Source: an uncultured SAR86 cluster bacterium
GTDB lineage: Bacteria; Pseudomonadota; Gammaproteobacteria; Magnimaribacterales; D2472
Length of the DNA stretch: 64,000 nucleotides
Assembly (NCBI GenBank): GCA_902596165.1
Contig: CACJSU010000007.1
Span: 1 to 64,000, forward strand
Direction of reading: 5' to 3'
The notes beneath the pieces were generated by a model. It was not told the DNA's origin, ran no database searches, and worked only from the letters and a program-made list of their open reading frames with translations. Each line of letters begins with the position of its first letter. Within the stretch, counting starts at the first letter, position 1. The position numbers and the translations under genes are program-made. Positions 45,524-56,180 of the stretch are shown here, one piece after another.

Positions 45524-45742
45524 ATGAAACACTCTTCAAACGAAAAGGGAAATTTAATGATGTATGTAGGCCTTGGGTTTGGTCTGTTTGGCGTTGTTTT
45601 ATATGATCCGTTAGGATTGTTATTTCAAGGCACAGGATTAATGGTTATCGGGCTAGGTCTAATTTGCATGTATGTAGGTTATAAGCATTCAAGTGAAGTT
45701 GAGGCGGTTAACAAAGCCGTTGAAAACTTCGAAAAAAGATAG
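45524..45742 (+). CDS. Small membrane protein, tail motif AVxxFEK (1)
   Basis: 72 residues: two membrane segments (about 12-32 and 36-56) and a short charged tail ending NKAVENFEKR. A strong ribosome site (AAGGAG) precedes the ATG. Similar tails end the next two proteins, marking a set of related small membrane proteins. Function unknown; it is the first gene of an operon with an Xre regulator. Confidence 0.75.
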   Translation: MKHSSNEKGNLMMYVGLGFGLFGVVLYDPLGLLFQGTGLMVIGLGLICMYVGYKHSSEVEAVNKAVENFEKR

Positions 45743-45751
45743 GAGAACATC

Positions 45752-46147
45752 ATGGGTCCAGAAACAATAGTGCCTGTATTGGGGATAATGACCGGAATAA
45801 TAATACCTGTATCAGTTTTTATTTGGCTGTATTTTGAAAGCAAGGATAAAAATAAAACAATATTAGAGATATCTAAAAATATTGATGATCCTTCAAAGAT
45901 GCAAGACTTAATTGGCATGCTTGATGAAAGAAAGAAAGAGCCAATTGATTATAGAAGAACTGGTGTGGTTACCCTTTTTACTGGCGTGGGTCTTTTTCTT
46001 TTTGGTGTCTTCTTTTTAGGAGAAATCTTAATGGGGGTTGGAGCATTAGTAACTGCCATCGGCATTGGGCAAATTATTGCTGGCTATCTTTATCCCAATA
46101 CAAGTGAAGAAATAAATCAGGCTGTAGATGCGTTTGAAAAGAAATAA
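45752..46147 (+). CDS. DUF6249-like membrane protein, tail motif AVxxFEK (2)
   Basis: 131 residues: an N-terminal helix (about 8-28), a cytoplasmic linker (29-70, charged, with SKMQDLIGMLDERKKE), two more helices (71-114) and the tail NQAVDAFEKK. The layout resembles DUF6249-type proteins. It starts nine bases after the previous gene with AGGAGA upstream. Function unknown. Confidence 0.72.
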   Translation: MGPETIVPVLGIMTGIIIPVSVFIWLYFESKDKNKTILEISKNIDDPSKMQDLIGMLDERKKEPIDYRRTGVVTLFTGVGLFLFGVFFLGEILMGVGALVTAIGIGQIIAGYLYPNTSEEINQAVDAFEKK

Positions 46148-46157
46148 TAGAGTAAGG

Positions 46158-46400
46158 ATGAATAAATTTACAGTAAAGAATTGGGCTGAAATTTCACAGG
46201 GCCTCGGCGTAGGGATTGGGTTTATCAACTTTTATGTACTTTATTACTCATGGCACATTTCTTGGGGAATAAGCTTTGCTATTGCCTTTGGACTAGGCTA
46301 CCTAGCTAGTGTTTTTTTTGAGCATTATGTAGGCGATAAACTTGAGAATACAGAGGCCAAGGAGCTCTCTGATGCTGTTGAAGAATTTGAGGAGAAATAA
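46158..46400 (+). CDS. Small membrane protein, tail motif AVxxFEE (3)
   Basis: 80 residues, two hydrophobic segments (about 17-36 and 40-58) and the tail ELSDAVEEFEEK. I chose ATG 46158 because GTAAGG directly precedes it; the frame is open ten codons further upstream inside the previous gene. Third member of the tandem set sharing a C-terminal motif. Confidence 0.72.
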   Translation: MNKFTVKNWAEISQGLGVGIGFINFYVLYYSWHISWGISFAIAFGLGYLASVFFEHYVGDKLENTEAKELSDAVEEFEEK

Positions 46401-47967: not shown

Positions 47968-48861
47968 TTATAATTTTTCAACAACTCTTTTAATCTCTTT
48001 TATGTGATCAATTGTTGTTCTGCAGCATCCACCAATTACGGATGCCCCACTATTAATCCAATCCATTACAAAATCCTTGTAGTCAACAGGAGTAATAGGT
48101 TGATGATTGTGATAATGCCATTCATCCGAATCGCTCACAAACCCCTCTAGCTTGTTTTTTTTGTAGATTGAAGAGTTGGCGTATATCCCAAAGCTTTTTT
48201 CTTTTTTTAGTTTTTCAATTGCCATGCTTGCTGTATCTGCATGAACGCAATTGACCAATTGGCAATCAACATCCAATTTAAGGCCCTCACTAATTGCAAG
48301 ATCTAACAGCTCAGTGCTTGGCAACCTATTAAGCTTGTTGCTTCTGGTTGTCCAGCTTAGCCACACTGTATCAGAAAATTTTTTTGCTGTGGATGCGGCA
48401 ATAATACCCTCATAAATTGATGCCATGGTCTCACAAATAATGACATCCACTTCACCTCTATAAACTTCGCCCAATGTCTCATAGAACTTTCTTAATTTTT
48501 TTTCATTTGGGCTCAAATCTGGTCTGAAAGTTACGTGAATTGGAGGATAACATCCAGCTATCTTGGTTTGTGTCCCAGTTTTAATTACTGCTTCTTTGCA
48601 TAATTCTAGCGATCGCTTTGCTAAATCTTCATACGGGGGTGCTGATGGCTCACGTTTTAACAATTCAGGAGTAGCTTGATAGTTTGATGTAGTAATAACA
48701 TCTGCACCGGCTTCTATATTATCAATATGAATTTGTTTAATAACTTCTGGATTATGTATTAAGGAATAAGCTGACCAAATAGAGGTTTTGAAGCTGGGGA
48801 GATACTCGCCACGGTTTTCAAGTTCTGTGCCAAGCGCTGAATCTAATATTAAAGGTTTCAT
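47968..48861 (-). CDS. mmuM: Homocysteine S-methyltransferase
   Basis: 297-residue homocysteine methyltransferase barrel beginning MKPLILDSALGTELENRG. Zinc ligands are the cysteine in QLVNCVH and the pair in IGGCCRTT. GADVITTSNYQA is typical of the MmuM/YagD group, which uses S-methylmethionine or SAM as methyl donor. ATG 48861 has GAGAG upstream; the open frame continues 19 codons into the DoxX gene. No SAM riboswitch is visible here, unlike the BHMT-like paralogue. Confidence 0.87.
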   Translation of the reverse strand: MKPLILDSALGTELENRGEYLPSFKTSIWSAYSLIHNPEVIKQIHIDNIEAGADVITTSNYQATPELLKREPSAPPYEDLAKRSLELCKEAVIKTGTQTKIAGCYPPIHVTFRPDLSPNEKKLRKFYETLGEVYRGEVDVIICETMASIYEGIIAASTAKKFSDTVWLSWTTRSNKLNRLPSTELLDLAISEGLKLDVDCQLVNCVHADTASMAIEKLKKEKSFGIYANSSIYKKNKLEGFVSDSDEWHYHNHQPITPVDYKDFVMDWINSGASVIGGCCRTTIDHIKEIKRVVEKL

Positions 48862-48871
48862 TTGTTGTCTC

Positions 48872-49270
48872 TCAGGAGTTATTAAAGAGCCTCCATTGAC
48901 TAATATTATGGCTTGCACTTAATACAAGCAACCCGGCAAAAATCCCTAGGTTTTTAACAAAATTTTGCATTTCTCTACCAGCATCTGTGTTGGGGTATTC
49001 GTTCCAAAAATCATGCATTCCGAAGTTTATTAATATGGTTAAAGCTGCAAGGATTATTGCCGGTTCCTTGATGCGATATCCAGTGATGAGCATCAACCCT
49101 AGCGCTATCTGCAATACAATGGTTATTGGCAACAGAATGTTTACAAGAGGCACATTGTGAAGAGTCATATATTCAAGCATAAAATCATAGCGTGGAATTT
49201 TTGTAATTCCAGGATATAAAAAATATAAGCCAAGCAATATTCTTCCAGTTGTAATTAAAAATTTTTCCAT
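48872..49270 (-). CDS. DoxX family membrane protein
   Basis: 132 residues, four helices. The opening GRILLGLYFLYPGITKI and the LQIALGLMLITGYRIKEPA segment match DoxX/DoxD-like quinone-linked membrane proteins. Precise role unknown. Ten bases separate it from the methyltransferase and it follows the GFA gene by ten bases, a possible three-gene transcript. Confidence 0.83.
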   Translation of the reverse strand: MEKFLITTGRILLGLYFLYPGITKIPRYDFMLEYMTLHNVPLVNILLPITIVLQIALGLMLITGYRIKEPAIILAALTILINFGMHDFWNEYPNTDAGREMQNFVKNLGIFAGLLVLSASHNISQWRLFNNS

Positions 49271-49280
49271 TGGTTTTCCT

Positions 49281-49646
49281 TTATTTTTCTACCCAATCAA
49301 GCATATCTTCAACATAGATATCACCTTTTGGCTCAAATTCTTGTGGTTCATCTAAACTGCAAATGGTGATATAAATATTTTTTTGATCTTCATCAAGAAC
49401 ACAAACCAAGGGAGTCCCGCAATCTTGGCAAAAATATCTTGCTCCATGGGAAGAGGAGATTAGTTTTTTGGGATCACCTTTTATGTATTTAAAACAAGGT
49501 CTTGGAATAGCCATCCAAGAAACAAAAGCAGCTCCCGAAATACTCCTGCACATGGAACAATGGCAATTTGCAGAAGGGTAATTGTTGGGCTCAAAACTAT
49601 AGCGAACTGAGCCACAAAAACATCCGCCCTCTATTACATTATCCAC
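49281..49646 (-). CDS. GFA/CENP-V family zinc protein
   Basis: 121 residues with the GFA zinc motifs: C9 and C11 in GGCFCGSVRY, NCHCSMCR at about 33-40 and FCQDCG at about 73-78. Members were named for glutathione-dependent formaldehyde activation, but function is mostly unknown. The start is GTG 49646, which lies inside the arm of palindromic repeat A, placing this gene directly after the repeat. Confidence 0.87.
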   Translation of the reverse strand: MDNVIEGGCFCGSVRYSFEPNNYPSANCHCSMCRSISGAAFVSWMAIPRPCFKYIKGDPKKLISSSHGARYFCQDCGTPLVCVLDEDQKNIYITICSLDEPQEFEPKGDIYVEDMLDWVEK

Positions 49647-49688
49647 TGTTTTATTTTACTCCACCTGACAGAGTGTTTTTAAACAGTG
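49644..49688. repeat. glmS-tail palindromic repeat, copy A
   Basis: Imperfect palindrome: left arm CACTGTTTTATTTTACTC, right arm GAGTGTTTTTAAACAGTG, nine-base centre CACCTGACA. The arm ends CACTGTTT/AAACAGTG and the ACTCCAC block are shared with copies C and D and with the glmS 3' end. The right-hand boundary gives the GTG start of the GFA gene on the - strand. Leftmost copy found. Confidence 0.75.
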
Positions 49689-49698
49689 ACTTAGTATT

Positions 49699-49893
49699 TT
49701 ATCCATAATTATCTGAAAAATATTGTTCTCTCTCTTCCTTATTCATACCAACAGTATCGTTCATAAAATTATTTCTGTCTTCTCTAGATTTGAAGACCCA
49801 TATGCAAACAGTATCCTGTGAATGATAGATTGCTTTTAGTTCATCATCTATTTCGCAGATTTCTTTTGGGATTTCTGTCTTGATGCAAATCAC
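49699..49893 (-). CDS. Small protein of unknown function
   Basis: 64 residues, GTG start with AAGGA 11 bases upstream. Soluble, acidic, with a closing NKEEREQYFSDNYG. No family recognised. It lies between repeats A and B together with the 95-residue membrane protein gene, so both would belong to one cassette. Confidence 0.5.
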   Translation of the reverse strand: MICIKTEIPKEICEIDDELKAIYHSQDTVCIWVFKSREDRNNFMNDTVGMNKEEREQYFSDNYG

Positions 49894-49914
49894 GATTTTG
49901 AATGTCCTTTTATA

Positions 49915-50202
49915 TTAAGTTATCAGCTTAGGTATTATTCCTAGTTGAGCAAGAATACCAAAGATGATTAACAATATAATGCTGCTGATTATTTTAAGAT
50001 TCCTCTTTTCAATCCATTCAAATAAGTTATCTATAAATTTTCTTATCCGTTTATCAGCTATATCCATCCATTTAATAGCTTTTCTTGTCCATGAGTCAGT
50101 CATGTCAATTAATAATAAAGAGAAGGCTGCGATAATGAGCCACACTAAACCATTAAGAGTCATGTCTATAATCCAACCGACTGCTATCCAGTTAATTTCC
50201 AT
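49915..50202 (-). CDS. Membrane protein of unknown function
   Basis: 95 residues, hydrophobic segments at about 7-30 and 73-91 separated by a charged amphipathic stretch (RKAIKWMDIADKRIRKFIDNL). No family recognised. ATG 50202 lies 11 bases from repeat B. Same orientation as glmS and all other genes of the array. Confidence 0.6.
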   Translation of the reverse strand: MEINWIAVGWIIDMTLNGLVWLIIAAFSLLLIDMTDSWTRKAIKWMDIADKRIRKFIDNLFEWIEKRNLKIISSIILLIIFGILAQLGIIPKLIT

Positions 50203-50213
50203 TATGATCTATC

Positions 50214-50268
50214 CCACTGTCACTGATTAAGTTTAAACATTGATTTCTTAGCACTCGATATTGTTTTC
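50214..50268. repeat. Repeat copy B with remnant of a cassette gene
   Basis: 55 bases that match 52737-52791 at 52 positions. The match covers the right half of the palindrome (TTTAAACATTGATTT here) and then the last codons of the 66-residue cassette gene, including its stop. So copy B carries a broken 3' end of a second copy of that gene, directly next to the G+C-rich sulfotransferase insert. Confidence 0.85.
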
Positions 50269-50285
50269 GTCGTGTCGTGATCATG

Positions 50286-50984
50286 CTAACGCTCGTAACC
50301 CATTGCATCGAACTCAATCCTGCAGTTCTTATATATTTGGTCCTTTGCTTTCTGCGACAACAGCTCGGATGCAGGCCTTCTGTTAGTTCGGAATTTGTGT
50401 TTGGTTTGTGGATAGTGCGCGACAATATCAAATTCAAGCCTGTCGCCGAGGGTCGTGAGGTCTTCCTGCATATTGTCAAAATTGACAATGAAATCGACAA
50501 TAGGTTTTTCACCGTCTGAATAGGTTGGGTAAGTGACGTAATACTTCTTCTTCAGAACACGCTCAAGCTCCTTGTCAAAACTCCAGTTCTTTTTTCCGCG
50601 CGCCTGATAATAGATATGTGATACAACCTTTTCGTAGGGATGCCTTTCGATCGAAAAAGTGAAGTAATCATCGTAAGTTTTTTTGCCGACGTACTCGCGA
50701 ATCGCAACAGCCGGCATATGATTGAAAAACTTGCCACGGCGTCTGGCGCGTAAAAATTTCATCTTGCGTGCCTTTATCATATCGCGATATCGCTGCTCTC
50801 CAAGACCACCGTAGTTCTGAGGTAACGTGCCGCCCATGTCCAGCCTGACGAGTTCGTCTTCAAATGATATCGGAGTGATGATGTCATCGGGACCACAGAC
50901 TTGGCTCAGACCAACCTCCATGCTTGTGCCCGAGGTTTTACGGGTCTTTACGAAAATAAACTTCTTTGCATGGCTAACAATCAT
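50286..50984 (-). CDS. Sulfotransferase family protein
   Basis: 232 residues. The opening KKFIFVKTRKTSGTSMEVGL is the PAPS 5'-phosphosulfate-binding loop of the sulfotransferase-2 type, and the later FTFSIERHPYEKVVSHIYY is the 3'-phosphate-binding segment (R-x-P-x-x-R-like). It transfers sulfate from PAPS to an unknown sugar or surface acceptor. ATG 50984 overlaps the preceding sulfotransferase by 11 bases. Base and codon usage are richer in G+C than elsewhere in the window. Confidence 0.83.
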   Translation of the reverse strand: MIVSHAKKFIFVKTRKTSGTSMEVGLSQVCGPDDIITPISFEDELVRLDMGGTLPQNYGGLGEQRYRDMIKARKMKFLRARRRGKFFNHMPAVAIREYVGKKTYDDYFTFSIERHPYEKVVSHIYYQARGKKNWSFDKELERVLKKKYYVTYPTYSDGEKPIVDFIVNFDNMQEDLTTLGDRLEFDIVAHYPQTKHKFRTNRRPASELLSQKAKDQIYKNCRIEFDAMGYER

Positions 50985-51777
50985 TGGTTGCCCTGCTGAT
51001 TCGACTAAGTCCTTTCTTGCGCCGATAGATAGCTATTTTTCTCGAAGCATCAATGGGTTGCGAAATTCTCTGCCAAAAATATTTTTTCTCCGGATACCAA
51101 CTGTTAGATTTATCCGGTAAAATGCCGTCCAGAACAACTTCCCAATCCGGCGATGATTCGTATCCACAACCGACCAGATCTGGTGTCATTGTGCCGTGGA
51201 TTGCCTGCTGTTGAACGATGCGACCGAGATGTTTTCGCCAGACACCGACACTGGTCGGTCCAATAGGACGGACGCCACGCATTGCAACCTTTGACTTTTC
51301 AGACACTTGCGCCTGTTCATGGTACTCAGAAAATTTGTGTTGTTTCTCAAGCCATGGAAATTTTGCAGTGATTTGGCTTTGTGTGGCGTCAGGGTTATTT
51401 ACAAAATCCTCGTACCGGATATTGAGAAAGCGATCGTGGCCGAACAATGGGCGTGCACAGGCATGCAATTCACGCCAAAGCCTAATGTTCGAGTAGTACA
51501 TATCCTCGCTCTTACCGTGCCGGCTAACGATGACATCACGTGGATCGCGCGTTACGTAAATGACATAGAGATTAGGATCGTCGATGACTCCTGGCATGTA
51601 TAACGTATCTTTGGGTCGTTTCGTGATAACCACATCGTTGTTTTTTGCGGTTACGAGGTGAAAGCGAATCTCATGGTCATAATGCTTGTTTGTCCGAAAA
51701 CAGGTGACCATCGCCTCGTGCAAGAGAGTAGTACCGGATCGCGGCGAGCAGGCAACAATGTGAATGTGCTTAAACAG
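50974..51777 (-). CDS. Sulfotransferase with probable CTG start
   Basis: 267 residues if started at CTG 51777. The PAPS 5'-phosphosulfate loop ACSPRSGTTLL (about residues 9-19) lies upstream of the first canonical start (TTG 51723), so that start would remove the active site. The frame is closed by TGA at 51783-51781. CTG at 51777 has GGGAG seven bases upstream and gives MFKHIHIVACSPRSGTT. The 3'-phosphate motif is VTRDPRDVIVSRHG. It may alternatively be a gene that recently lost its ATG. Confidence 0.78.
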   Translation of the reverse strand: MFKHIHIVACSPRSGTTLLHEAMVTCFRTNKHYDHEIRFHLVTAKNNDVVITKRPKDTLYMPGVIDDPNLYVIYVTRDPRDVIVSRHGKSEDMYYSNIRLWRELHACARPLFGHDRFLNIRYEDFVNNPDATQSQITAKFPWLEKQHKFSEYHEQAQVSEKSKVAMRGVRPIGPTSVGVWRKHLGRIVQQQAIHGTMTPDLVGCGYESSPDWEVVLDGILPDKSNSWYPEKKYFWQRISQPIDASRKIAIYRRKKGLSRISRATNDC

Positions 51778-51966
51778 ACGTCAACTCCCTAGTGCGCCGT
51801 CGAGGGCCGAATACTTCTTTTGTATATCCGTAATTCTTAATATCGGTACTCCTTCATGTCATACGGATCAGAGGTATAGAAACCTAGCAAAATCATTCGA
51901 CTGTTATGGAGTTGTTTAAGTTTCGTATTGGGGGATTTTCCAGTAGATATAACCCTTTGAGCTCTA

Positions 51967-52332
51967 TCATATTCCCAGCCCAGCAAGCAATGCAGTAATA
52001 CCCATTAGAAAAGCACCTGGCATTCTTAATAAAGCTCTATGTCTTCCCAAACCAAGAAAAATAAATAAAAGTGAGCCTAAAAGGTTAATCCCAATTACCG
52101 GATATGCAGCTATAGCAAATTCTGGGTTATAGGCTATATAAATTAAAGTTAAAGCACTTATAAAAAGAAAGATGGTGAACACGTGCCAAGAAACAATGCT
52201 TAACGATTTTGTTAATGCCTCCATATCGCTATCATTTACATTGCTAATATAAATTTTTCCCCCGATGAACCCATGAAACAACATTCCCGCTAAAGAAAGG
52301 AAAGCCGCAATCATCAGAAGCCAATAATCCAT
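51967..52332 (-). CDS. Four-helix membrane protein of unknown function
   Basis: 121 residues, four hydrophobic segments, with HGFIGGKIYI and LGRHRALLRMPGAF loops that recall small bacterial membrane families but no secure match. I chose ATG 52332; the frame opens at TTG 52347. It lies just after repeat C, at normal A+T-rich composition, and before the G+C-rich insert. The 183-base gap downstream (51784-51966) holds no gene or repeat that I can see. Confidence 0.62.
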   Translation of the reverse strand: MDYWLLMIAAFLSLAGMLFHGFIGGKIYISNVNDSDMEALTKSLSIVSWHVFTIFLFISALTLIYIAYNPEFAIAAYPVIGINLLGSLLFIFLGLGRHRALLRMPGAFLMGITALLAGLGI

Positions 52333-52351
52333 TTTACTTTTTATCAATACG

Positions 52352-52398
52352 AATCATAAACTACTCTACCGTCACTGAGTGTTTTTAAACAGTGATTT
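52352..52398. repeat. glmS-tail palindromic repeat, copy C
   Basis: Right arm GTTTTTAAACAGTGATTT is well kept; the left arm is worn (AATCATAAACTACTC). The centre CTACTCTACCGTCACTGAGT resembles the reverse complement of the last glmS codons. It separates the 121-residue and 98-residue membrane protein genes. Confidence 0.75.
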
Positions 52399-52412
52399 GA
52401 TTCTAACATTTT

Positions 52413-52709
52413 TCAATTTGCTAATGCTTCTGACCATAACAAAAGGTAGATGCCTGGAACTAGAATTAATGTCACAAGCAAATACACCCTCTTGCCAATG
52501 TTCTTTTTAAAATACTCTGAAATTTGACTAAGCAATAATGATAAGGGTATTACTATTGCTGCCATCATTATCATGCCTGTAAATTGCCATCCTGATTGAT
52601 GGTTTTCAGAATAATTAACTGCGTACCATTCAACGATAGACCCACAAACTATAATCAAAATTAATGTAGAGAAAATAAGTGCTTTGTAAGAGAGGTTGAG
52701 ATTAGTCAT
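52413..52709 (-). CDS. Three-helix membrane protein of unknown function
   Basis: 98 residues with hydrophobic segments at about 9-30, 40-62 and 74-94. No recognised family. It is flanked closely by repeats C and D: ATG 52709 lies six bases beyond copy D, and the stop is 14 bases before copy C, so repeat-gene-repeat spacing is minimal. Confidence 0.62.
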   Translation of the reverse strand: MTNLNLSYKALIFSTLILIIVCGSIVEWYAVNYSENHQSGWQFTGMIMMAAIVIPLSLLLSQISEYFKKNIGKRVYLLVTLILVPGIYLLLWSEALAN

Positions 52710-52715
52710 GCGTGA

Positions 52716-52769
52716 AAATCACTGTTTAAGACTACTCCACAGTCACTGATTGAGTTTAAACAGTGATTT
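52716..52769. repeat. glmS-tail palindromic repeat, copy D (best preserved)
   Basis: Perfect 14-base arms AAATCACTGTTTAA and TTAAACAGTGATTT enclose a 26-base centre that itself contains ACTC/GAGT and CAGT/ACTG pairs, so the whole unit can fold into one long hairpin. The left 34 bases (52716-52749) match the glmS 3' end and flank (52984-53017) at 28 positions. It immediately follows the stop of the 66-residue gene. Confidence 0.85.
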
Positions 52770-52770
52770 C

Positions 52771-52971
52771 TTAGCACTCGATATTGTTTTCATCCAGTAT
52801 CTTTTTTACAGATTCTGGGATTGTTTTATTATTTTCTAAATAATAATCTTTGAGTATGCATGCTTGATCGGGATCAATTCCCAAAGAGTAGTAATTATTA
52901 GTCTCGGTTTCAGTGGTAAAAGAGCAAGAGGTTGCTATAAACCCAAACACTAATATTGCTGTGTACTTCAT
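52771..52971 (-). CDS. Small exported protein, probable lipoprotein
   Basis: 66 residues with a signal peptide ending ATSC (lipobox-like, Cys16), then a short hydrophilic tail ending in a Cys. First gene after glmS on the same strand, with AAGGAG just upstream of the ATG. The final codons are repeated at 50243-50268, showing that a second copy once existed. Function unknown. Confidence 0.62.
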   Translation of the reverse strand: MKYTAILVFGFIATSCSFTTETETNNYYSLGIDPDQACILKDYYLENNKTIPESVKKILDENNIEC

Positions 52972-52983
52972 AATGGTCTCCTT

Positions 52984-53017
52984 AAATCGCTGTTTAAACT
53001 TACTCCACCGTGACTGA
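52984..53017. repeat. glmS 3' end and flank, parent sequence of the repeats
   Basis: Covers the last codons of glmS (Ser-Val-Thr-Val-Glu-stop) and the following AGTTTAAACAGCGATTT on the - strand. Copies A-D resemble this segment. In many bacteria the conserved glmS tail is the TnsD-recognised attachment site of Tn7-like elements. Confidence 0.8.
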
Positions 53018-54826
53018 CTTAGCTAGGTTCCTGGGTTGATCTAAATCAGTTCCACGTTGACATGCAACTTGATAGGCAAGGATTTGAAGTGGGATGGTAT
53101 AAATAATGGGTGCAAGCAACTCGCTGCACTCTGGCATTTGAATATAAACCCCTCTTTCAAGATTGATTTTAGAATTGGGCCCGCCAAAGACATAAAGCGT
53201 TCCGCCTCTGGCTTTTACCTCTTCAAGATTAGAGACCAGTTTTTCGGTTAGAGTATTTTCAGGTGATAGGGCGACCACTGGGATTTGATCATCTACCAAG
53301 GCCAATGGTCCGTGTTTTAGCTCGCCTGCTGGATATGCTTCAGCATGGATGTATGAAATTTCTTTAAGCTTTAATGCGCCCTCTTGCACGATTGGGAAAA
53401 ACATTCCTCGACCTAAAAATAACGCATTGTGCTTATCAGCAATGTTGGGAACTATGCCCGAGATCTTATCAGACAGCTTTAATGTTTGATTAATGATTTC
53501 AGGCAAGGATCTTAATTCGTTGACAAGATTTTTTCTTACCCCTTTATCTCCATCTAGGCTTTTTGCTATCGACATGGCAAGCAACATAAGCCCTGCAAGT
53601 TGAGTAGTGAATGCTTTGGTTGAAGCAACGCCTATCTCTGGACCGGCATTGGTGAATAAAACATGTTCGGATTCTCTGGCCAGCGAACTGGTTGGTACAT
53701 TACAAATTGATAGAGTGCTCAAATAATCTTTTTCTTGTGCATACCTTAATGCAGCTAAGGTGTCTGCCGTTTCACCTGATTGCGAGATGGTTACAAACAA
53801 TGTGCCCTCTTCTACAAGCGGGTCACGGTATCTATACTCACTAGCAAAATCTACATAACAGGGAATTTTTGCTATTTTTTCAAACCAAAATCTTCCCACC
53901 TTCCCTGCATGCAGGCTCGTTCCACAGGCAACAAACTGAATCCTTTTAATTTTACTAAAAACCTCAGATGAGCCTAGGCCAAATATATTATCTAAAACAT
54001 CGTCTTCTCCAAACTTTCCGTTGATGGTATTTGCGACTGCTTCAGGTTGCTCATGTATTTCTTTTTCCATAAAGTGAGAATACTCACCCTTGGTAACGGC
54101 GTTAACTGCTATATCTATTTCAGTTATGTCTCTTGTCACAGGAGAATTCTTACCATCAAACACTTGATAGTGTTGTTTTGAGACTTCAGCAACATCGCCA
54201 TCTTCAAGAAAAACAAACTCATTGGTGAGCTGAGAAAGGGCCAAGGGGTCAGAAGCAGCAAAATTTTCTTCCAAACCAACCCCAATTAAAAGCGGGCTTT
54301 TATTTCTTGAAATAATGAGCCTGCTTTTGTCATTGATATGAATGGCTGCTATAGCATAAGCCCCGTCTAGCTCTTTGACTGCACCATGCATGGCAAGAAG
54401 TAGATCGCCCGAGGACTGAAAATGTTGGTGAAGTAGATGAGCTATGACCTCCGAGTCAGTCTCTGATTGGAAGGTATAACCAGATTTGGTTAGTTTTTCG
54501 GTTAACTCAAGGTAATTCTCTATGATTCCATTGTGGACAATGTGAACATCTCCGCTGGATGCATGCGGGTGTGCATTTTGTTCTGAGGGCTGGCCATGTG
54601 TAGCCCAGCGAGTATGGGCAATGCCAAGTTTACTTTTTGGGCGCTGCTCAATCATTCCTTCTTCAAGCAAGCTAACTTTGCCTAAAGTTCTTAGGTTGAA
54701 AATACTGTCTTTTTGATGGAGGGCTATCCCAGCTGAATCATAGCCGCGATACTCCATTTTATGAAGGCCTTGGACCAATAGCTTGCCAACGTTGCGAGAT
54801 GATGCCGCTCCTATAATTCCACACAT
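53000..54826 (-). CDS. glmS: Glutamine--fructose-6-phosphate aminotransferase
   Basis: Makes glucosamine-6-phosphate, first step to UDP-GlcNAc. The N-terminal glutaminase begins MCGIIGA with nucleophile Cys2. Two SIS domains follow (FVACGTSLHAGKV, SQSGETADT, and LGRGMFFPIVQEGALKLKE). The C-terminus DQPRNLAKSVTVE is the conserved tail. 608 residues is normal. It starts one base after glmU on the same strand, so both enzymes of the pathway are co-transcribed. No glmS ribozyme is visible, as expected for this group. Confidence 0.97.
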   Translation of the reverse strand: MCGIIGAASSRNVGKLLVQGLHKMEYRGYDSAGIALHQKDSIFNLRTLGKVSLLEEGMIEQRPKSKLGIAHTRWATHGQPSEQNAHPHASSGDVHIVHNGIIENYLELTEKLTKSGYTFQSETDSEVIAHLLHQHFQSSGDLLLAMHGAVKELDGAYAIAAIHINDKSRLIISRNKSPLLIGVGLEENFAASDPLALSQLTNEFVFLEDGDVAEVSKQHYQVFDGKNSPVTRDITEIDIAVNAVTKGEYSHFMEKEIHEQPEAVANTINGKFGEDDVLDNIFGLGSSEVFSKIKRIQFVACGTSLHAGKVGRFWFEKIAKIPCYVDFASEYRYRDPLVEEGTLFVTISQSGETADTLAALRYAQEKDYLSTLSICNVPTSSLARESEHVLFTNAGPEIGVASTKAFTTQLAGLMLLAMSIAKSLDGDKGVRKNLVNELRSLPEIINQTLKLSDKISGIVPNIADKHNALFLGRGMFFPIVQEGALKLKEISYIHAEAYPAGELKHGPLALVDDQIPVVALSPENTLTEKLVSNLEEVKARGGTLYVFGGPNSKINLERGVYIQMPECSELLAPIIYTIPLQILAYQVACQRGTDLDQPRNLAKSVTVE

Positions 54827-54827
54827 A

Positions 54828-56180
54828 TTATTTTTTGTTTTTTGCCCAGTCTTCTTTGGTCGCCTGCTTGCCTCGAGCTACAGCAAGAGCTTCGTCGGGA
54901 ACATCCTTGGTGATTACAGAACCAGCCCCTACGTATGCACCTTTACCTATCTCTACTGGCGCTACCAATGAAGAATTTGTTCCAATGAAGCTCTCTTCAC
55001 CAATGGTTGTTTTATGTTTGTTGGTACCATCGTAATTGCAGGTAATAGTTCCAGCGCCAATGTTTGCTCTCTCACCAATATCAGCATCGCCTAGATAGGC
55101 AAGATGATTAGCTTTTGCGCCATCACCAAGTTTTGTTTTTTTGGTCTCAACAAAGTTGCCAACTTTAGCGTTGTTTCCAATTTCTGAGCCCTCTCTAAGA
55201 CGGGCATAAGGACCTATGTTGCAATTAGAGCCTACTGTTGCAGATGAGAGGTGGCTGAAAGAATCAATAGTAGAGTTGTCTCCAATAGAAACGTCTTGTA
55301 AAACAACATTTGATTTAATAGTAACGTTATCTCCTAAAGTGACCTTGCCTTCAAAAATTACATTAACGTCTACAGAGCAATCTTTACCAGCCTCAACTTC
55401 ACCCCGAACATCAATGCGAGTTGCATCCAGGATAGTAATCCCTTGTTCTAATAATTTTTCAGCACCCATTTTTCTTAAAATTGACTCTAACTCATGTAAT
55501 TCATGTTTATTGTTCGCCCCCACAACTTCGGCGGGGTTAACTTGAATATAATTTATTTTAACCCCTTTTGCAGAAAGTATCTCTACCAAGTCAGTAAGAT
55601 AGTACTCATTGGCAGCATTTTGGTTATTGATTTCATCTAAAGCAGGTTTTAAAAGGCTGCCATCGACTAATAAAATGCCTGTAAAGACCTCTTGAATTTT
55701 TCTTTCTTCTTTAGATGCATCCTTTTGTTCAATAATTCTTAGGGCTAGGTTTTCTTCATTGGTAATTATTCTGCCATAGCCAGTTGGGTCATTTAACCTC
55801 ATGGATAAAAGTGTGCACTCTTGCTTAGAACTAATAAGTGCCTCTATGGTCTCATTGCTGATTAAAGGAACGTCGCCATATAAAACTAAAACCTTTTCAT
55901 TTTCTTTTATCAAATGAGAGGCGGTTTTAACCGCATGTGCGGTTCCTAGTTGTTCATTTTGATCTACTGTTTGAATGTTTGGATCTATGCTGGTTATGTG
56001 TTTTTTTAGTAGGTCTTTTTGATGTCCCACAACGACGGTTACATCTTTGCTATTTGTTTTAGCGGTTTTGATAACGTGAGAGATTAAGGAATGGCCGCCA
56101 AGTGGCTGCATCACTTTTGGCAAATTGGTGTTCATTCGAGTTCCTTTGCCAGCTGCAAGGATAATAGTATGAATATTCAA
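54828..56180 (-). CDS. glmU: Bifunctional GlcNAc-1-P uridyltransferase/acetyltransferase
   Basis: N-terminal pyrophosphorylase with LAAGKGTRM (residues 8-16) and a C-terminal left-handed beta-helix acetyltransferase with hexapeptide repeats, including NHLAYLGDADIG and TITCNYDG. 450 residues is normal. The start is TTG 56180; no ATG fits the conserved N-terminus. Follows the ATP synthase operon after 32 bases, an order conserved in gammaproteobacteria. Confidence 0.96.
   Translation of the reverse strand: MNIHTIILAAGKGTRMNTNLPKVMQPLGGHSLISHVIKTAKTNSKDVTVVVGHQKDLLKKHITSIDPNIQTVDQNEQLGTAHAVKTASHLIKENEKVLVLYGDVPLISNETIEALISSKQECTLLSMRLNDPTGYGRIITNEENLALRIIEQKDASKEERKIQEVFTGILLVDGSLLKPALDEINNQNAANEYYLTDLVEILSAKGVKINYIQVNPAEVVGANNKHELHELESILRKMGAEKLLEQGITILDATRIDVRGEVEAGKDCSVDVNVIFEGKVTLGDNVTIKSNVVLQDVSIGDNSTIDSFSHLSSATVGSNCNIGPYARLREGSEIGNNAKVGNFVETKKTKLGDGAKANHLAYLGDADIGERANIGAGTITCNYDGTNKHKTTIGEESFIGTNSSLVAPVEIGKGAYVGAGSVITKDVPDEALAVARGKQATKEDWAKNKK

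Follow-up and report, generated by a model that had tools for sequence, protein, structure and literature searches.

Gene cassettes at the end of glmS in SAR86 and some unrelated marine bacteria look like an integron-style exchange system

How does the end of one housekeeping gene come to be repeated between the small genes that follow it? The question is raised by a stretch of 64,000 nucleotides (the window) from an uncultured SAR86 cluster bacterium (assembly GCA_902596165.1, 1.45 Mb; contig CACJSU010000007.1, positions 1 to 64,000), in which copies of the glmS end recur downstream of this gene. A 2013 study describes SAR86 as ubiquitous in the surface ocean and as resisting cultivation (PMC3569297). 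The shared element, here called the core, is the DNA for the last GlmS residues Ser-Val-Thr-Val-Glu-stop (SVTVE-stop), with the sequence TCNGTNACNGTNGARTRR; its first T is numbered position 0. An earlier note on this DNA had reported four downstream repeats, A to D, and had read the region as cassettes added one after another at the glmS tail. All four repeats are present, and D is indeed identical to the glmS stop region at 28 of 34 positions, but a fifth downstream site, between cassettes 3 and 4 (Table 1), had been missed, and the system is larger than the note supposed. The region is probably a gene-cassette array at the glmS end, moved by site-specific recombination with a circular form. 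It extends to some unrelated marine bacteria and looks like an integron-style exchange system, the recombining enzyme of which was not found.

Gain and loss of cassettes behind glmS

The glmS gene was found in 98 of 120 relatives from the same order, and the downstream DNA was taken from 60 of them. Two of these loci (L045, L051) were too short for use, and the usable set, including the window, comprises 59 loci; many of the genomes are metagenome-assembled genomes (MAGs) or single-amplified genomes (SAGs). Cassettes were called with the core pattern, allowing up to two substitutions and no gaps, and length limits of 120-3,500 bases apply to the sets of 283 cassettes used for the arms and of 180 cassettes used for the empty sites (see below). 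The gapless pattern and the length limits omit A-like sites and a 5.2-kb cassette in genome G066, and some of the called cassettes may be two.

At least one further core lies within 8 kb of glmS in 54 of the 59 loci, namely in 43 of 44 in the window's family and in 8 of 11, 2 of 2 and 1 of 2 in the other three families. These further cores are found 156 times on the glmS strand and nine times on the opposite strand (up to two substitutions). The earlier note had considered that the repeat might be scattered over the genome, or that relatives might have the same fixed gene content. A whole-genome search with D matches this locus only, and in 18 whole genomes all 48 exact cores lie at the glmS locus and on the glmS strand; in the one genome without an exact core, glmS reaches the contig end. 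The content varies even among close relatives, and the cassette reading stands. In a class-wide sample the core pattern is present in 233 of 274 genomes, usually in one copy, and some have two. One genome of another family of this class (G123) has three exact cores, compared with one in most, and could be another array carrier.

Comparison between genomes shows precise gain and loss of cassettes, both at the glmS end and at the cassette-borne copies of that end. In genome G002, the nearest relative by GlmS (97%), cassettes 3 and 4 occur in reverse order, while the DNA on either side of them is collinear with the window (about 94%). For an empty-site test the flanks of each cassette were joined at the crossover and a gap-free match was sought in other genomes, with shifted right flanks as controls. 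Such a match was obtained for 17 of 180 cassettes, 15 of which adjoin glmS, versus 0 of 180 in each of five controls. The 1,684-bp sulfotransferase cassette of the window is one of the 17; its site is empty in G002 (97.2% over 500 bp). With variable content, an order swapped between near relatives and precise empty sites, the addition of cassettes at the glmS tail that the note had proposed is borne out. Near-identical cassettes also occur in different families. One is shared by G005 and G088 with 99.7% identity over 1,409 bp, and several further cross-family pairs reach 97-99%, unlike the GlmS proteins of other families, which are only 48-65% identical to that of the window.

The sulfotransferase cassette is present in 10 loci. 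Its left end is cut at differing places in several hosts, as we read it at least twice via short homologies with the core, and these ends look as if they had been trimmed after arrival. The sulfotransferase gene pair (50286-51723 and nine other loci) is 98% identical over 1.5 kb between the window and G002, with flanks at about 94%.

The crossover point and the inverted cassette ends

The exchange point was located by linkage, comparing sites with the same upstream but different downstream cassettes, and the reverse. Group means were calculated for 379 sites, and intervals were obtained by resampling 38 and 44 groups; near-identical cassettes are counted repeatedly, so that neither these pairs nor the co-change pairs below are independent. 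Position 5 goes with the upstream cassette (0.73, interval 0.60-0.85, background 0.28; downstream 0.33), whereas position 8 goes with the downstream cassette (0.62, interval 0.50-0.74, background 0.33; upstream 0.34), as do position 11 (0.79 versus a background of 0.38; upstream 0.37) and position 17 (0.76). Therefore, the exchange falls at positions 6-7, an almost invariant AC within the Thr codon of the SVTVE-stop sequence. This supersedes an exchange zone of 6-8 bases suggested by 239 sites. Among 87 cassettes, the two flanks agree at letter 8 in 0.34 of cases (chance 0.36) and at letter 11 in 0.41 (chance 0.37), which is no more than chance, so that the ACNGTNGA stretch is not duplicated. 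No duplication of more than two bases was detectable at the flanks of these cassettes, and the flank letters exclude a longer target duplication or a casposase-like capture.

About half of the cassettes, as judged from their ends, are shown to carry matched inverted arms centered on this AC. The first 17 bases behind a core tend to match, in reverse complement, a 17-base stretch that is separated from the next core by a 3-base spacer. The mean match is 10.1 of 17 within cassettes (n = 171), compared to 6.2-6.6 in three shuffles and 6.9 across junctions. At least 12 of 17 positions match in 83 of 171 cassettes, but only in 11 of 117 junction pairs and in 6, 11 and 14 of 171 in the three shuffles. 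In the set of 283 distinct cassettes this level is reached by 140, while 200 shuffles gave a mean of 26.6 and a maximum of 38. One arm ends at position -4 and the other begins at position 17, which places their center between positions 6 and 7; linkage and arm symmetry, measured in different ways, thus give the same result to the base. The core itself is symmetric around AC at the pairs -2/15, 0/13 and 1/12 (90-95% of 239 sites).

The arm sequences differ among cassettes, yet match from left to right, and the same cargo can bear quite different matched arms. Without any selection, identity at arm positions 5-15 is 0.59-0.69 over all 283 cassettes. For 131 distinct joined ends chosen for at least 12 matches, Watson-Crick pairing at these positions is 87-95%, partly as a result of this selection, which is not the reason that all four Watson-Crick pair types occur at 10 of the 11 positions. 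In 84 pairs of homologous cassettes with good arms the right arm had changed at 39 of 65 positions at which the left had changed, but only at 53 of 859 at which the left was unchanged.

The palindromic part of the repeats exceeds chance, as the ends of a cassette are often inverted over 17 nucleotides. The hairpin of D is not found at every junction; it arises because two neighboring cassettes have the same arm type. An attC-like hairpin at each array junction was rejected, as the junction arms are mostly unpaired. The crossover of attC lies at G|TT in its R boxes. The likeness to integron attC sites that the note had seen is not upheld, because each cassette forms the palindrome from its own two ends, and the crossover falls in the middle of it and not at the G|TT of an R box.

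The proposed mechanism, the search for the enzyme and rival explanations

The crossover data are best read as conservative site-specific recombination between a putative circle and glmS. The mobile form would be a circle in which the two ends, once joined, form a dyad-symmetric site of 54 bp (arm, core, arm); this site would be recombined with glmS by a site-specific recombinase. The incoming cassette would supply a new, still functional 3' end of glmS, which would account for copies that differ chiefly at silent codon positions. Less certainly, the recombinase may act in trans, may not be resident in most carriers and may be of the serine type, as suggested by the two-base center and by half-sites laid out as in the attP of serine integrases. 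The attP of large serine integrases of the Listeria phage A118 type is described as pseudo-palindromic, with 25-bp half-sites, a central dinucleotide of exchange and an outer zinc-ribbon motif at half-site positions 16-24 (PMC3783163). The strongest arm pairing in the cassettes is found at half-site positions 16-26 by our own count, and about half of the cassettes show dyad-symmetric half-sites around a central exchange dinucleotide. In anatomy attP is the best match found, with the differences that the arms vary by cassette and that no integrase gene was found with the cassettes.

Phage_integrase profiles gave one or two matches of Xer size in all 60 genomes of the order that were searched and further matches in nine of them (one under the cut-off), none of which lies beside glmS by its coordinates; the window's genome has two, neither on the glmS contig and both Xer-sized. 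The order's additional tyrosine recombinases are situated in other islands (L125, L126, L127, L128, L129). Several of these islands contain runs of small genes with signal-like starts, and L125, L127 and L128 also hold proteins of about 430-465 amino acids that appear related by eye. The DEDD transposase (PF02371) of IS110-type elements and the Y1 transposase (PF01797) of IS200/IS605 or REP-associated elements were each found in 0 of 18 genomes. No recombinase was found among the cargo proteins scanned, and in a search for a viral form two core-plus-arm patterns had 0 matches each among viral contigs. A frame of about 100 amino acids with a helix-turn-helix of the PF07508 type (serine recombinase DNA-binding), reading inward from the cassette end, is found beside the core in L038, L044, L048, L050, L053, L065, L079, L197 and others. 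The protein matches integrase or Recombinase-domain profiles and is present in 13 of 118 relatives; 12 of the 13 matches are on the glmS contig within 12 kb, eight of these within 50 bases, and the thirteenth (G061) is on another contig. It was considered as a candidate enzyme. A consistent start codon and a catalytic domain are both lacking, and no relatives were found in phages, plasmids and viral contigs. Any recombinase that is needed would come from outside or is not recognized by these models. An enzyme encoded elsewhere, as suggested in the note, is presumed, since these searches identified none.

Several points weigh against site-specific recombination with a circle as outlined above. 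Profile searches of carriers revealed no mobilizing enzyme, and no cassette circle was seen. A serine recombinase domain (PF00239) was found in one of 18 genomes of the SAR86 order and in none of 18 genomes behind the named loci, which are mostly not titled SAR86. The single serine integrase (525 amino acids; G036, L134 / L227) is not at glmS; its last residues read like what we take to be a translated tRNA tail, and it probably belongs to a tRNA-targeted element. The arms of 143 of the 283 cassettes match at fewer than 12 of 17 positions, which is explained by left-arm deletion for some but not for the remainder, and without arm selection the co-change is weaker (253 of 685 versus 485 of 1900). 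It is difficult to reconcile such varied arm sequences with a single sequence-specific integrase. At position 17, agreement with the upstream cassette, too, is slightly raised (0.61, interval 0.50-0.73, background 0.48). Only three of ten core pairs are symmetric, the symmetry is absent at 3/10 and 4/9, and the core letters are also constrained by the GlmS codons. A two-base AC duplication is compatible with the data. G-T and A-C mismatches in the arms are about equal (50 and 69, p 0.10), a balance that neither supports nor excludes a folded strand as the substrate.

Such a folded strand is the basis of another explanation, in which the arms fold as single strand or cruciform and expose the core to a tyrosine recombinase, possibly the host's XerC/XerD, as in structure-guided, integron-like recombination with exchange of one strand that is resolved by replication. 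It would account for arms that vary widely and tend to stay complementary, an Xer-size protein is present in every genome of the order searched, and a single strand exchange would also yield a point-like crossover. However, the crossover lies at the center of the palindrome, unlike in attC or dif, and the mismatches show no wobble bias towards one strand. In addition, SAR86 has canonical dif-like sites (ACTTCGCATAATATATATTATGTTAA in G000, C15:20611-20636, and also in other genomes; one or two mismatches in eight of nine genomes) with no likeness to the core, and action of XerC/XerD at a dif-like site was rejected for this reason. We regard the folded-arm explanation as rather unlikely. The chances are smaller still for a family of DDE-type transposons with terminal inverted repeats of about 27 bp, an AC target duplication, the glmS tail as target and a transposase in trans. 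The cassette ends are inverted repeats, and the linkage switch would equally follow from a duplication of two bases, but there would be no reason for the right end to keep mimicking the glmS codons TCNGTN. TniQ was found in 0 of 18 genomes, a weak point because the control genomes were silent too, and no transposase was found among 60 hand-picked cargo proteins (top 25 of 43 families).

Precise excision is favored where inverted repeats are flanked by direct ones, and RecA-independent slippage or homologous exchange between the short direct repeats, aided by the inverted arms, might account for gain and loss of cassettes; some of the left ends of the sulfotransferase cassette look like deletions at microhomologies. 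But insertion in unrelated hosts and the sharp crossover at AC would be left unexplained, and linkage strongly disfavors this mechanism, which we consider very improbable. Short, partly palindromic repeats might also be ordinary terminators or REP-like repeats in a fixed gene order. This is refuted by the lack of a D match elsewhere in the own genome, by the exact cores of 18 genomes, which all lie at glmS, and by the variable content, and hardly any likelihood is left for it.

Among known systems, integron arrays share with the glmS arrays the small-gene cassettes in mostly one orientation, the fixed site with changing order, and a cargo of defense genes and many unknown proteins. They differ in that no intI-type integrase was found beside the glmS array, that cassettes are received at the coding end of a housekeeping gene, and that the palindrome is built from both cassette ends with the crossover AC at its center (attC was compared by its known features, not with a model). 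The array works like an integron but fails both defining tests that were made. Tn7-like elements also use the conserved glmS end, but insert downstream of the glmS stop and produce a five-base target duplication. Here the exchange is inside the coding end and the duplication at most two bases, and Tn7-like transposition was rejected on these two grounds; for these features the note was right to call the array unlike Tn7. Of the Tn7 genes TnsABCD/TniQ, TniQ was found in none of the 18 genomes, with the silent controls mentioned above.

Closest in plan are the staphylococcal cassette chromosome (SCC) elements at rlmH, which occur in tandem, and additive islands at tRNA tails. SCC is described as inserting into the last codons of rlmH between imperfect 18-bp direct repeats by a serine recombinase with a central dinucleotide, and pseudo-SCC without recombinase as well as restriction-modification cargo are reported (PMC10581047). 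Both systems integrate in the 3' end of a conserved gene that imperfect direct repeats restore, here glmS instead of rlmH. However, SCC elements are tens of times larger and normally carry ccr, whereas the glmS cassettes are mostly 0.2-2 kb, had no recombinase that we could find, and occur in marine Gram-negatives and others. The nearest precedent for the form of the array is the additive island at tRNA-Lys of Ca. Methylopumilus, with recurring copies of the gene's last 20 bp and variable content; its target is a tRNA gene, and arms, a crossover point and sharing across phyla are not part of the description as far as it was available (PMC10872708). The same source describes Tycheposons as having a tRNA target and a tyrosine recombinase (PMC10872708), in contrast to the glmS target and the lack of a recombinase in the scanned cargo or beside glmS.

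The window's array, its cargo and its spread

The features of the locus are collected in Table 1. Cassette 4 is truncated at its left end and fused to a cassette-1-type tail at its right end. The right part of site B resembles the right end of the 66-amino-acid-gene cassette, and B looks like a fused remnant of such a cassette and not like an independent copy of D. Past the array, small genes with C-termini that resemble one another (AVENFEKR, AVDAFEKK, AVEEFEEK) are lined up on the opposite strand (45524-46400, +), and homologs recur behind arrays in other genomes. An Rfam search of window positions 48000-55000 gave no match.

Table 1. Core sites, cassettes and genes of the glmS array in the window (aa, amino acids; cassettes are measured from crossover to crossover).
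Feature	Position	Strand	Remarks
glmS, 608 aa	53000-54826	-	C-terminus NLAKSVTVE-stop; host gene of the attachment site
Core, glmS copy, TCAGTCACGGTGGAGTAA	53000-53017	-	crossover dinucleotide AC = core positions 6-7
Cassette 1, 268 bp	52743-53010	-	arms 16/17; common to G002 and G008
66-aa gene of cassette 1	52771-52971	-	without Pfam match
Core site D, TCAGTGACTGTGGAGTAG	52732-52749	-	
Cassette 2, 371 bp	52372-52742	-	arms 15/17
98-aa gene of cassette 2	52413-52709	-	membrane type by eye
Core site C, TCAGTGACGGTAGAGTAG	52361-52378	-	
Cassette 3, 468 bp	51904-52371	-	arms 15/17; also in G002 (other place) and G047
126-aa gene of cassette 3	51967-52347	-	
Core site between cassettes 3 and 4, TCCATAACAGTCGAATGA	51893-51910	-	
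Cassette 4, 1,684 bp	50220-51903	-	arms 6/17, i.e., unmatched; empty site in G002
Two sulfotransferase-like genes of cassette 4	50974-51723, 50286-50984	-	
Core site B, TCAGTGACAGTGGGATAG	50209-50226	-	
95-aa gene	49915-50202	-	membrane type by eye; 26 loci, often near the distal array end
64-aa gene	49699-49893	-	recurs in 13 loci, cassette cargo in several
Core site A, one-base deletion, TCTGTCAGGTGGAGTAA	49656-49672	-	
GFA-family gene past A	49281-49646	-	elsewhere the same family is array cargo

Within the arrays 239 of 291 frames run with glmS, and the cassettes mostly contain one or two genes, with a median length of about 0.5 kb among those with good arms. The 60 cargo proteins mentioned above were picked by hand from 121 representatives of at least 100 amino acids, favoring large ones, so that their composition does not reflect frequencies. 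Among the cargo are a type I restriction-modification system (the 5.2-kb cassette in G066), a C5 methylase, an N6/N4 methylase, SRA-HNH and other HNH nucleases and a nuclease of the MvaI/BcnI type, and also GFA proteins, sulfotransferases and many small nameless proteins.

A search of named genomes with the core-plus-arm pattern, for which we estimate a chance expectation of about 0.06, revealed 70 stretches, 42 of them titled SAR86 (counted by eye). Other titles are Chloroflexi (two), Pelagibacteraceae (AG-319-F05), Nitrospina, Rhodospirillaceae, Halieaceae, Porticoccaceae, Luminiphilus, OM182, Woeseiaceae, Pseudohongiella and more. The two Chloroflexi contigs and the Pelagibacteraceae contig encode their own GlmS, 38-40% identical to that of the window, and behind it stand cassettes whose arms match at 8 and 12, 15, and 13 of 17 positions, respectively. 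In Chloroflexi SP321 the cassette has an 86% identical counterpart in one SAR86-order genome. For records with GlmS identities of 46-57% the title is the main evidence, as values of 48-54% are also seen in two families of the SAR86 order. SAR86-like sequence occurs under other titles as well, in Verrucomicrobia TMED44 (a 526-base stretch), in Gammaproteobacteria MED709 and AG-447-O13 (69-75%) and in the Woeseia record L175 (62-84%). Some of the cross-taxon cases could be assembly errors of MAGs or SAGs.

In search listings of the open-licence literature, with preprints outside the scope, we found no prior description of glmS cassettes in SAR86, which is a weak indication that none exists. The glmS end may serve as a portable integration address because it is so conserved. 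Tentatively, and with somewhat more doubt than confidence, we propose a cross-phylum, integrase-free exchange network of marine bacteria, for which the conserved SVTVE end might be the common docking port. Paired, interchangeable arm codes might be read by recombinases of the serine type, or of a new type, from passing elements, and a shared pool of single genes, including restriction and defense genes, might thereby circulate in streamlined plankton. The array bears on how small genomes such as those of SAR86 acquire single genes. The mapped site offers an exact substrate in the search for the missing recombinase, and with the port for cassettes at glmS defined and its crossover base located, gene exchange could be read from metagenomes directly.

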